From assembly GCF_019336435.1 (NCBI RefSeq), contig NZ_JAHWXQ010000002.1, forward strand, positions 1,054,001-1,118,000: DNA of 64,000 nt. The letters run 5' to 3'. Below, piece after piece: positions 5,251 to 62,910 of this stretch. This DNA comes from Pontibacter populi (GTDB lineage: Bacteria > Bacteroidota > Bacteroidia > Cytophagales > Hymenobacteraceae). Position numbers and translations under genes: made by a program. Numbering within the stretch: position 1 is the first letter of the stretch; every line of letters begins with the position of its first letter. A model generated the notes under the pieces. The model saw nothing but the letters and a program-made list of their open reading frames with translations, was not told where the DNA came from and did not search any database.

Positions 5251-6044
5251 TATAACAGCCTTAGTGTTTTTCACTTAAGTTGAAAGTTCTCATTCTTTTC
5301 AGAACGTCTCTTCTGTCATTTCTGCGGCAGGAGGAATCTGAGAGCTATCGTTCCCCTCTTGTCATCCCAATTTTTATCCGGAAATCTTAATAGCCCTATA
5401 GTTAGCGATCATACCAACTTGAAAAAGATGCAAAGTATTGCGTCTCTACATATACTGTGCGGCTCTGCAGGCACAGGTAAATCCGTCACGCTCATTGACG
5501 GCAACTATAGAACTATAGTTTAGAAATTGGTAAAGACAGAATTGTCCCCTTGAGGGGACTATAGGGGTGTTAATAAGCTAACTATAGAACTGTAACCTAA
5601 ACTATAACTATAGCAGAAATTCCCCTCTCGGGAGGGGCAGGGGTGGGTTGAAACCGTAACTATAGAATAATACCTCTAATTATAGCTAAGGCCTTATTTC
5701 TACCAAGATCCTTTCAGGATGACAGAGGGAGAAGTAGCCAACAGAGCTCCCGCCTTAGACTACTGAGAAGCGATTTTGAAGGTAACGAGCGTAGCTCTGA
5801 GGGGTTAGGGCGGTTGGACTACGGCAACTATAGAACATTAACTCCAACTATAGCATAAGCCCCAATCCTGAAAATCCTTTAATCCTGTAAATCCTGATTC
5901 AGACAAACCATGTCCCTCTCGGGCCAGTTGAGTTACAAACTCAACACCATAGTAAGACACGGGTTACAAACCCGCGCCAGCGGAAATGGGTAAATTACGC
6001 CAACTATAGAATTATAATTTAAGCTACACCAAAGGCAGTAAAAT
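5251..6044. repeat. Repeat nest: mosaic of small dispersed repeats
   Basis: No gene is visible in 794 bp. The stretch instead holds about ten CTATAG cores (one exact AACTATAGTT at 5511), a decayed AGAGACGCAA/TTGCGTCTCT palindrome (5425-5450), G-rich fragments such as CCTTGAGGGG (about 5552) and CTCTCGGGAGGGG (about 5625), an AATCCTG...CAGACAA element (5864-5906), and two hairpins with a constant TTACAAA centre (5927-5945, 5960-5974). Several of these recur elsewhere in the window. A role as terminator or 3' processing zone for the flanking convergent genes is possible but unproven. Confidence 0.7.
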
Positions 6045-10296: not shown

Positions 10297-10434
10297 TTAG
10301 AAAGTTTGGAAGTTAGAAAGTTAAAAAGTGAATTAAAGATGTGTGAGTAGAGTTTACACGATAACTTTTCAACTTTCTAATTTTCTAACTAAAATAACTT
10401 TCTAACTTTCTAACCTTTTAACTTTCTAACTTTT
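10295..10434. repeat. AACTTTCT-type inverted repeat in front of lptG
   Basis: The left arm (10295-10329) is built of GTTAGAAAGTT words; the right arm (10363-10434) repeats AACTTTCTAAC at least four times on the plus strand, so the two can fold into a long AT-rich hairpin. The repeat runs right up to the TTG start codon of the next gene, whose first codon is its last word. Related tracts occur at 6690-6720, 19550-19629 and 62609-62675. Confidence 0.7.
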
Positions 10435-19542: not shown

Positions 19543-19549
19543 TTTTTTT

Positions 19550-19629
19550 AGTTAAGAGTTTAGAGTTAAAAGTTTAAAGTCAAAATTAGGGTTTACCCAC
19601 TCTTAACTATAAACTCTTAACTCTTAACT
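19550..19629. repeat. 18-bp AT-rich inverted repeat between atpD and atpC
   Basis: AGTTAAGAGTTTAGAGTT (19550-19567) is matched, with one mismatch, by the reverse complement at 19612-19629, leaving a loop of 44 bases. It lies entirely within the atpD-atpC spacer. The words are of the AACTTTCT/AACTCTTA family found before lptG. Confidence 0.7.
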
Positions 19630-19638
19630 AATTCAAAC

Positions 19639-27446: not shown

Positions 27447-27458
27447 TCTTACATTGTT

Positions 27459-27521
27459 AAAAGGCCAAATGGCTGAATTGTTGAATCTCATTTTCAACGG
27501 TTCAGCCATTTGGCCTTTTTA
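27459..27521 (+). terminator. Long terminator hairpin of prs
   Basis: A 19-bp perfect stem (AAAAGGCCAAATGGCTGAA at 27459-27477 with its complement at 27501-27519) encloses a GTTGAA/TTCAAC inner stem. The loop uses the AATTGTTGAAT words found in neighbouring AT-rich repeats. Confidence 0.88.
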
Positions 27522-27679
27522 GCTTTTATGAGTGCAAATAAAAGATAGCCTGCGAAACGGTTTATGAATTTGATTTATAGTTGGTTAGACGTTTAGAGAA
27601 AAAACAATCAACATTTTAACAATCAGCAATTAAAAACCCCTACCTTTGTGGCTCGAAAAATTTTAACAAATTCATTTTT

Positions 27680-28270
27680 ATGAAAACTTTAGAGATTATA
27701 GGGTTTAAAAGAGCAAATCTCGGCAAATCGCAGACGAAAGAGCTGCGTAACGAGTCTTATGTACCAGGTGTATTATATGGCGGCGCTGAGCAAGTACATT
27801 TCTACGCACCAGCTATCCTGTTCAGAGACTTAGTTTATTCTCCGGAAGTATACGAAGTAGACCTGAATATTGAAGGCACACACTACAGAGCTGTGATGCA
27901 GGACGTACAGTTCCACCCGGTTAACGAAATGCTTTTACACGTTGACTTTCTTGAGCTTCAGGAAGACAAGCCTGTGAAAATGGAAATTCCGGTTAAAATG
28001 GTAGGTACATCTCCAGGTGTAATCGTTGGTGGTAAGCTGGTAACTAAGCTGCGTAAGCTTAAAGTTAAGGCTCTTCCTGCTAACCTTCCGGATTATATCG
28101 AAGTTGATATCTCTGACCTTGAATTAGGTAAGTCTATCAAAGTTGGTAAGATCAACACTGGTGGTAACTTCGAAATTCTTACTAACGCGTTAGCTCCGGT
28201 TGCAACAGTAACTATTCCACGTGCGCTTAAGAGTGCTCAGATGGAAGAAGCTCGCGGTGGCAAAAAATAA
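27680..28270 (+). CDS. rplY: 50S ribosomal protein L25/general stress protein Ctc
   Basis: This 196-residue protein is the long (two-domain) L25, which binds 5S rRNA. The N-terminal L25 domain includes NESYVPGVLYGG, and the C-terminal TL5 domain begins near 95 at KPVKMEIPVKMVGTSPGVI. A TACCTTTG -7 box is at 27641-27648. It has its own terminator. No CTATAG motif occurs in it. Confidence 0.96.
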   Translation: MKTLEIIGFKRANLGKSQTKELRNESYVPGVLYGGAEQVHFYAPAILFRDLVYSPEVYEVDLNIEGTHYRAVMQDVQFHPVNEMLLHVDFLELQEDKPVKMEIPVKMVGTSPGVIVGGKLVTKLRKLKVKALPANLPDYIEVDISDLELGKSIKVGKINTGGNFEILTNALAPVATVTIPRALKSAQMEEARGGKK

Positions 28271-28294: not shown

Positions 28295-28331
28295 AAGATC
28301 CTGTTCCGCTGCAAGCGGGGCAGGATTTTTT
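28295..28331 (+). terminator. Terminator of rplY
   Basis: GATCCTGTTCCGC pairs with GCGGGGCAGGATT allowing two G-U pairs, and is followed by T-rich sequence. Confidence 0.75.
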
Positions 28332-28352: not shown

Positions 28353-28479
28353 TTAATTGCTGATTGTTGAATTGTTAATTGTTAAACTATAGTTTGCTGT
28401 AGCAAAACTATAGGCACAGACAGTCGCAATTTTGATAATAATCCATTAAACAATCAACAATTCAACAATCAGCAATTAA
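28353..28479. repeat. 127-bp nested inverted repeat before pth
   Basis: The 33-base left arm 28353-28385 is almost perfectly mirrored by 28446-28479, with one mismatch and one single-base indel; both arms consist of AACAATT-type words. Inside the loop, CTATAGTTTGC (28388-28398) and GCAAAACTATAG (28403-28414) can form a second stem, with an exact AACTATAGTT at 28385-28394. The outer arm ends 4 bp before the GTG start of pth. Confidence 0.8.
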
Positions 28480-28483
28480 CTTC

Positions 28484-29128
28484 GTGAGCAATTCTACAAT
28501 TAAGACTATAAAACAATGGCTGGGTTTTTCACCTGAAACTCCTGCCGTACCCGAAGATACAAGCATGAAATACCTTATAGTTGGCCTTGGAAACATTGGA
28601 CCTGAATACGCTGAAACGCGCCACAACATCGGCTTTATGGTGCTCGATTATCTGGCTAAAAAACACGAAGCAAAGTTCGATGTAAGCCGCCACGCATTTG
28701 TAACCGAAATTAAAGTAAAAGGCCGCACCTACGTACTGGTAAAACCTACTACCTACATGAACCTGAGTGGCAAAGCGGTTAGTCATTGGCTGAACTCCCT
28801 AAAACTTACACCAGAGCAAATGCTGGTCATTACGGATGATATCGCGTTACCTTTCGGTACACTGCGCATCCGTATGAAAGGAAGCGCTGGCGGGCATAAC
28901 GGCTTAAAACACATCGAGCAGACGCTTGGGAATAACAACTACCCACGCCTTCGCTTTGGTGTTGGCGATGCTTTTCATAAAGGCAAACAGGTAGATTATG
29001 TGCTGAGCAACTTCAGTAACGACGAACAGGCCGAGCTGCAGACATTGATCGAAAAATCAGCAGATGCGGTTATCTCTTTCGGAACGATCGGGCTGGAACG
29101 TACCATGAACCAGTTCAACACGAAGTAA
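28484..29128 (+). CDS. pth: Peptidyl-tRNA hydrolase
   Basis: Pth releases peptides from drop-off peptidyl-tRNA. The core VGLGNIGPEYAETRHNIGF with catalytic His is at residues 33-51 and the DDIALPFGTLRI, GSAGGHNGLKHIE motifs follow. From the GTG at 28484 the protein has 214 residues, with a 27-residue N-terminal extension (about 187 from the internal ATG at 28565, the usual length). I recall similar extensions in relatives, so I keep the GTG, but either start is possible. It follows the 127-bp inverted repeat. Confidence 0.93.
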   Translation: MSNSTIKTIKQWLGFSPETPAVPEDTSMKYLIVGLGNIGPEYAETRHNIGFMVLDYLAKKHEAKFDVSRHAFVTEIKVKGRTYVLVKPTTYMNLSGKAVSHWLNSLKLTPEQMLVITDDIALPFGTLRIRMKGSAGGHNGLKHIEQTLGNNNYPRLRFGVGDAFHKGKQVDYVLSNFSNDEQAELQTLIEKSADAVISFGTIGLERTMNQFNTK

Positions 29129-34974: not shown

Positions 34975-35020
34975 AAATCCTGTTGACCCTTACATCCTGC
35001 AAATCCTGGTTCTGACAAAA
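34975..35020. repeat. AATCCTG...CAGACAA dispersed element, copy B
   Basis: The words AAATCCTG, ACATCCTGCAAATCCTGG and TCTGACAAAA occur in the order found at 5864-5906 and 62867-62910. It is fused directly to the following hairpin. Confidence 0.65.
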
Positions 35021-62675: not shown

Positions 62676-62700
62676 TGTAGAGACGCAATATTTTGCGTCT
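62676..62700. repeat. AGAGACGCAA/TTGCGTCT palindrome, copy C
   Basis: TGTAGAGACGCAA (62676-62688) is mirrored by TTGCGTCT (62693-62700). The same palindrome is at 5425-5450 (decayed) and 35017-35052 (as a terminator). Confidence 0.7.
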
Positions 62701-62743
62701 TGTTTCTAGTTGCACGGACCTGAACTATTATGCTCTCCTTGCT

Positions 62744-62854
62744 CTTTCGGATTTCCTGATCCGAAAGCCATCTGCCTGGGATTTCTTAATCCCATATTCT
62801 TTTAACGCGGATTAGGAAATCCGCTTCAGGTTTTGTTCCGGATTAGGAAATCCG
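62744..62854. repeat. Four short hairpins with changing stems
   Basis: Four hairpins in 111 bp: CTTTCGGAT..ATCCGAAAG (62744-62767), TGGGATT..AATCCCA (62777-62794), GCGGATT..AATCCGC (62807-62824), CGGATT..AATCCG (62839-62854). Loops are TTCCTG, TCTT and AGGA twice. Stems differ but stay paired; the inner ATT/AAT is constant. Confidence 0.75.
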
Positions 62855-62866
62855 AAACAGCAAATT

Positions 62867-62910
62867 AAATCCTGCAAATCCTTTCATCCTGTAAATCCCG
62901 AATCAGACAA
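62867..62910. repeat. AATCCTG...CAGACAA element, copy C
   Basis: AAATCCTGCAAATCC, CATCCTGTAAATCCCG and AATCAGACAA occur in order, as at 5864-5906 and 34975-35020. Confidence 0.65.

Follow-up and report, generated by a model that had tools for sequence, protein, structure and literature searches.

An inverted repeat ahead of pth in Pontibacter populi probably belongs to a class of intergenic inverted heptamer arrays

Results

The rplY-pth intergenic region

The DNA analyzed, here called the window, is a 64,000-nucleotide stretch of the Pontibacter populi genome (contig NZ_JAHWXQ010000002.1) in which rplY is followed on the same strand by the essential gene pth (Table 1). The spacer between the two genes contains the intrinsic terminator of rplY and then a long inverted repeat. 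Since the terminator precedes the element, the inverted repeat is distinct from it; a stem with a CAGGATTT-type end was present in all 50 of the 50 Pontibacter rplY-pth spacers compared. Further upstream, a 27-nt, 93% inverted repeat with a AAAAGGCC...GGCCTTTT stem directly after prs (27459–27519) is an ordinary strong terminator. Rfam searches at gathering thresholds gave a tRNA as the sole match in the window and none on the pth element. A single array copy lies ahead of rplY, close to TACCTTTG at 27641–27648, the putative rplY -7 box by the promoter consensus.

Table 1. Features of the rplY-pth region and of two further gaps with inverted arrays (positions in the window)
Feature	Positions	Strand	Basis or remark
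Single copy of CAATNAA-like array	27602–27633	+	7 bp ahead of the rplY -7 box
rplY, ribosomal protein L25/TL5	27680–28270	+	PF01386, PF14693
rplY intrinsic terminator, stem and T run	28298–28331	+	Sequence; apart from the inverted arrays
Left arm, on the stop-codon side; array of degenerate 7-mers	28353–28386	-	Words C/A-rich on the minus strand
Inner hairpin of AACTATAG motifs	28387–28413 (about 28387–28397 / 28402–28413)		Centroid folds
Right arm, on the start-codon side; array of degenerate 7-mers	28446–28479	+	C/A-rich, almost G-free
pth, peptidyl-tRNA hydrolase	28484–29128	+	Pfam PF01195; GTG start
Inverted array of AGTTAGAA words, period 8, tgt-lptG gap	10297–10429		Arms 10297–10329 / 10397–10429
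Inverted array of GTTAAGA words, period 7, atpD-atpC gap	19548–19631		Arms 19548–19580 / 19599–19631

The two arms of the pth element are 34 nt each, are spaced 59 nt apart and are complementary at 32 of 34 positions (94%) in an ungapped alignment. An earlier, sequence-only reading of this DNA had reported 33-nt arms with one mismatch and one indel, which is the same object in another alignment. It had also described a second inverted pair inside the loop, which we recovered in centroid folds and which is built of AACTATAG motifs, and a right arm ending four bases ahead of the pth start, which proved correct (28479 and 28484, the latter an in-frame GTG). RNA folding of the repeat, proposed there as a check, gave a z of -6.7 and DNA folding one of -10.9, and in neither case was any of 200 shuffles as stable; shuffled controls preserved dinucleotides. 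When gaps longer than 450 nt were trimmed to 450 nt, the pth repeat was the top inverted repeat among the window's 44 intergenic gaps of at least 60 nt (score 29; 0/30 shuffles). Its arms are heptamer-periodic (period 7, 0.67).

The AACTATAG motif itself has 100 occurrences in the window where 2.5 would be expected, an approximately 40-fold over-representation (for example at 28385–28394 and 28406–28413), and 1207 times in 800 kb of the P. populi genome. A sample of 170 kb drawn from 49 other Pontibacter genomes contained it only 20 times, all within 7 genomes, and from this distribution we regard it as an iterated motif of the HIP1 kind that is restricted to one sub-clade.

The first codons of pth (S-N-S-T-I) are themselves array words. 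With start codons assigned by reading frame and gene borders taken from our own ORF calls (at least 70 aa, greedy), 28 genomes combined array words with a TTG or GTG start of pth and 16 had ATG and no array; the exceptions numbered 4 and 2. On this comparison, the array ahead of pth has extended into the gene. Promoter boxes of the form TAnnTTTG were counted in 10 of the 50 rplY-pth spacers where 6.3 were expected, and a promoter within the loop was rejected as a general rule; TACCTTTG does lie between the arms in three genomes (L112, L125, L128).

The arms as a dispersed repeat

Allowing at most one mismatch, the 16-mer AACAATCAGCAATTAA has 37 copies in the P. populi genome and the reversed pattern has none. 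A BLAST search with the 127-bp element returned many arm-length matches in the genome, the non-self matches being 24–62 nt long, and these can be read as loose arrays of CAATNAA-like 7-mers, either single or in pairs. The query was matched in full only at its own locus, and BLAST found no second complete arm-loop-arm element in the genome. Across Pontibacter, copies of AACAATCARCAATTAA (at most one mismatch) numbered 0 to 85 per genome, with 55 in P. populi, and the reversed controls 0 to 40, highest in G029 and G008. The number of CAATT-word copies in a genome was not significantly related to use of the word at pth (Mann-Whitney p 0.12), and five of the six genomes with at most one copy had another word there (Fisher p 0.01, uncorrected for kinship). 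An AGTT-word pattern, which was overly strict, matched 3 times in P. populi against 0 for its control.

Two other repeats were noted in the window. Dispersed degenerate arrays of 8-9-bp words (AATCCTGNA) are found at 5864–5906, 34976–35018 and 62868–62910, and a TGTAGAGACGCAATATTTTGCGTCTC-like repeat has copies on opposite strands at 5422–5450 and 62676–62704.

The same architecture in other intergenic gaps

Two other gaps in the window hold inverted arrays of different words (Table 1), and their flanking genes, named from the translations, are presumably tgt and lptG in one case and atpD and atpC in the other. The tgt-lptG element reaches from the stop codon of tgt almost to the TTG start of lptG, and the minus-strand gap between atpD and atpC is filled by its inverted array. 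In 864 kb of the P. populi genome, 21 of 447 gaps of 40–420 nt (about 5%) contained an inverted pair with periodic arms, and these comprised 17 of 271 co-oriented, 2 of 75 convergent and 2 of 101 divergent gaps. This excess in co-oriented gaps falls short of significance (17/271 versus 4/176; Fisher p 0.066). Two of the 21 pairs resemble GC-rich terminators (window 27447–27679 and L237 11762) and were excluded from the polarity count only. In 14 of 15 co-oriented pairs of P. populi the start-side arm lies 1–29 nt from the start codon, and in the remaining one 72 nt.

Conservation of architecture and turnover of words

Following the terminator, the rplY-pth spacers of 34 of the 50 Pontibacter genomes, P. 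populi included, hold an inverted pair at p ≤ 0.05, meaning that the best pair was exceeded by at most 5 of 100 shuffles, and in 29 of the 50 it was beaten by at most 1 of 100; related genomes are non-independent in these counts as in those below. No significant pair was present in the other 16. The earlier reading had named the lack of any such structure in relatives as the observation that would speak against it; the structure is there in the 34 spacers, in other sequence, most genomes having CAATT-like words and the others TAGAT, AAGACAC or a mixture. Orthologous arrays also lie upstream of rplY in many Pontibacter genomes, where an inverted pair was beaten by at most 5 of 100 shuffles in 25 of 50 and by at most 1 of 100 in 21 of 50.

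The atpD-atpC and tgt-lptG gaps were each compared in 30 of the 50 genomes. All 30 atpD-atpC gaps contained a significant inverted pair with periodic arms, made of GTTAAGA words in 17, GTTCTGA in 6, CAGTTA in 4 and GTTACGA in 3. At tgt-lptG a significant pair was found in 19 of 30; both word sets were present in 20 spacers, the start-side set only in 4 and the stop-side set only in none, a distribution suggestive of a primary role for the start-side array. In genome G026 (contig 3, 214116–214733) there are matches at exactly 40-bp spacing, which we read as the start-side tgt-lptG words in one long tandem array.

Where the two genes were adjacent outside the genus, periodic pairs at atpD-atpC were found in 7 of 28 further Cytophagales and in 1 of 27 further Bacteroidia, counts in which 8 and 20 spacers, respectively, fell outside 30–420 nt and were entered unscored as having none; most of the other Bacteroidia gaps are shorter than 30 nt. 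Loci L277 and L322, in which no atpD was found, were left out. Given this rarity, the pair is not required by that operon. Its retention in all 30 Pontibacter genomes examined suggests some selection. The atpD-atpC spacer of a distant Bacteroidia genome (L302) carries a long direct-only array of TTAGATGG words with no inverted partner, and arrays can therefore occur unpaired.

Similarity between the arms

At pth, left arms match the right arms of their own genome better than those of other genomes (p 5e-5; 20,000 permutations). The own right arm beat the mean of the others in 36 of 50 genomes and ranked first in only 3 of 50. Own-arm pairing was likewise preferred at atpD-atpC and tgt-lptG (p 1e-4 each; 10,000 permutations). 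The right arm is common to P. populi and G028, the closest relative compared (score 29). For the left arm of P. populi the score was 29 with the right arm of the same genome, 23.5 with the array ahead of rplY and 16 with the G028 left region. On the left side the two genomes are identical for 18 bases, after which the new arm of P. populi follows. Because the left regions of G009, G015, G045 and G007 are, like that of G028, different from the P. populi left arm (scores 13 to 18 for these four), the perfect hairpin is read as derived. It looks recent, probably having arisen in P. populi by copying, with loss in G028 as a less likely alternative. Homogenization of inverted repeats by template switching is documented (PMC8604942), and we infer that template switching keeps the arms complementary.

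Mispairs within the stems

A stem selected as RNA should tolerate G-U and avoid A-C mispairs on the mRNA strand. In unique stems we counted 16 G-U and 32 A-C mispairs at pth (33 stems), 13 and 22 in the region ahead of rplY, 33 and 26 at atpD-atpC and 14 and 15 at tgt-lptG, which sum to 76 G-U and 95 A-C over the four loci. Terminator stems of rplY from the same genomes gave 80 G-U and 0 A-C, a control inflated by shared descent. In P. populi the other stems of co-oriented gaps, mostly terminator-like, gave 20 and 9, and the periodic stems of such gaps 17 and 9. The RNA reading is disfavored at pth by the comparison with the other co-oriented stems (16/32 versus 20/9; Fisher p 0.004), the mispairs there being unlike those of a selected RNA. 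The mixed bias may leave room for an RNA role at other loci.

Polarity of the arms and the pth leader

In 14 of 15 co-oriented pairs of P. populi the stop-side arm has more G than C and the start-side arm more C than G, and none is reversed. Across the Pontibacter genomes compared, this polarity was seen against its reverse in 30 versus 2 spacers at pth, 20 versus 0 upstream of rplY, 26 versus 1 at atpD-atpC and 20 versus 0 at tgt-lptG, the rest being undecided. Gaps free of arrays lean the same way (68 versus 18, of 212), arrays exceeding them only at p 0.07, and the polarity is thus due in part to G-poor leaders being preferred in general.

Folded alone, the right arm with the pth start region reached -0.4 kcal/mol and all 200 shuffles folded better; without the left arm it is, by this model, a fully open leader. 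Initiation regions of Bacteroidetes have been described as A-rich, tuned by secondary structure and without Shine-Dalgarno sites (PMC6847099), and an open start-side arm fits initiation of this kind. If both arms are transcribed, the predicted hairpin would bury this otherwise unstructured leader, with a possible effect on translation of pth.

Discussion

The pth hairpin is unlikely to be a switch dedicated to pth, since its arms are copies of a dispersed repeat, the same design stands before other genes, the left arm looks recent and G-U pairs are not favored at this locus. With moderate confidence we explain it as one member of a class of self-homogenizing intergenic inverted arrays, whose effects on translation would be incidental or secondary.

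According to the sequence-only reading, the hairpin is an mRNA element specific to pth that masks or exposes the start region on a signal. The strong fold, the right arm that is fully open once the left is removed, its place four bases from the start codon and the inverted pair found there in many relatives are all in keeping with this. However, unrelated genes have the same architecture, the arm sequence is a genome-wide repeat, the left arm looks recent, A-C exceeds G-U at pth, no Rfam family matches at gathering thresholds and the TAnnTTTG count (10/50 versus 6.3 expected) raises doubt over whether both arms are cotranscribed with pth, and we consider such an element quite improbable. What stands of the proposed control of the ribosome site is that the predicted fold could bury an open leader; nothing marks the element as dedicated to pth. 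A structured mRNA regulator of the riboswitch kind was rejected, as there was no match to an RNA family and the mispairs at pth (16 G-U, 32 A-C) lack the expected wobble tolerance. The hairpin might instead be one of many selected as RNA for a general intercistronic role (operon insulator, mRNA stabilizer or translational coupling) from any complementary words. Arms near stop and start codons (start-side distance 1–29 nt in 14 of 15 P. populi pairs), pairs in all 30 Pontibacter atpD-atpC gaps examined, the lean to co-oriented gaps and the G-U excess of the P. populi sample (17 versus 9) would suit this role. It nevertheless seems unlikely, as periodic arms at atpD-atpC are found in only 1 of 27 wider Bacteroidia and 7 of 28 Cytophagales outside Pontibacter, some convergent (2/75) and divergent (2/101) gaps hold pairs as well, a proper terminator already stands ahead of the pth element and no wobble bias appears over the four loci (76 G-U, 95 A-C).

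Mobile elements and DNA-level sites find still less favor. A REPIN or MITE, in which two inverted repeats form a short element mobilized by a transposase, would account for a dispersed intergenic repeat present as two inverted copies, a feature of REPINs and RAYT-associated REPs that the pth element does show, as well as for the single copies, and Y1 transposase (PF01797) genes are present at 3 loci of the P. populi genome. All three are flanked by other, GC-rich palindromes and none, by eye, by arrays, while arms plus loop were matched nowhere else (non-self matches 24 to 62 nt) and some tgt-lptG spacers have a right array but no left one, so that the arms were not gained as a unit; this origin is highly improbable. 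REPIN and RAYT-associated REP were rejected for the missing repeat-flanked cognate Y1 transposase and, on reading the arms, the missing palindromic core, and MITE because arms plus interior never recur elsewhere in the genome. As each lacks at least one tested defining feature, the pth element is filed under intergenic short-period repeats. The TTTCGGATTTCCTAATCCGAAA-type inverted repeat at window 62739–62863 differs from the heptamer arrays in that its palindromes also flank a Y1 transposase gene in locus L169, and it has the look of a REP/RAYT element. The least probable reading is a site acting as DNA (a cruciform, a protein-binding array or an invertible segment), even though the DNA fold is strong (z -10.9), pairs occur in convergent and divergent gaps and pth has no wobble bias. 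The words vary between loci and between species, which does not fit a single binding protein, and a polarity relative to genes is unexpected for the cruciform suggested earlier, although the DNA could form one.

The nearest published description that we found is the work of MacGregor (2015, PMC4679880) on heptamer direct repeats (TAACTGA and others) in Beggiatoaceae, Cyanobacteria and five Bacteroidetes. These are, like ours, 7-bp words in intergenic DNA, often just upstream of start codons, and what that source reports of them, no pattern of gene function and some copies before ribosomal protein genes, is also reminiscent of the arrays here. The period of 7 is common to both, and the P. populi arrays are likewise intergenic and beside start codons; the pth arrays consist of other words and are not exact TAACTGA direct repeats. 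MacGregor's repeats are exact, direct and of one word, with only one indirect set reported in the BOGUAY genome, whereas ours are degenerate arrays of many words in inverted pairs with polarity to the genes. REP/REPIN elements with TnpA-REP (RAYT), for which a Bacteroidetes subclass 2.6 is described (PMC6006769), are similar in their dispersed intergenic inverted pairs and single copies; the arrays here differ from that account in having no GC-rich palindromic core, in standing beside none of the 3 Y1 genes and in arms gained separately. Template-switched inverted repeats (PMC8604942) share identical arms, differing flanks and one arm rewritten from the other, and concern short repeats in yeast genes, whereas here the process is proposed for bacterial intergenic heptamer arrays. 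The start-side arm resembles the leaders without Shine-Dalgarno sites of Bacteroidetes (PMC6847099) in being A-rich, G-poor and unstructured, but it is derived from a repeat and has a complementary partner, and repeat arrays do not appear in the available portion of that description. We found no description of paired inverted heptamer arrays in the open-license PMC literature, which is weak evidence of novelty.

In the class that we propose, each arm would be a run of degenerate 7-8-bp words, one on the stop side and an inverted one near the next start. Slippage and ectopic copying may spread and renew short-period arrays, leaving a small set of words in each genome, and copying between arms at the DNA level, for example by template switching during replication, would then maintain complementarity, as the comparison of arms points to. 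The words would turn over while the inverted architecture stays. The polarity itself is observed; its cause may be a constraint on the transcript side that fixes the C-rich, G-poor arm toward the start codon, where it would provide an open leader in a phylum that initiates without Shine-Dalgarno sites. Arms that are cotranscribed could fold, hide the leader and perhaps lower translation of pth, as a by-product or a late use. Growth of an array over a start codon would account for the shift of pth from ATG to TTG or GTG with array-coded first residues.

More tentatively, and with rather less than even confidence, we suggest that these arrays form a self-renewing intergenic class of the Cytophagales in which words turn over, inverted architecture, placement at gene ends and polarity persist, and start codons can be overgrown. 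If this is true, structure is kept without sequence through copying between arms, and many "regulatory hairpins" called in this group would be one repeat class with many words, which would change the reading of intergenic RNA structure there. The arrays would offer a natural test of whether long-term complementarity of inverted repeats reflects RNA selection or DNA copying, and would be repeats that re-make the start codons of the essential gene pth.
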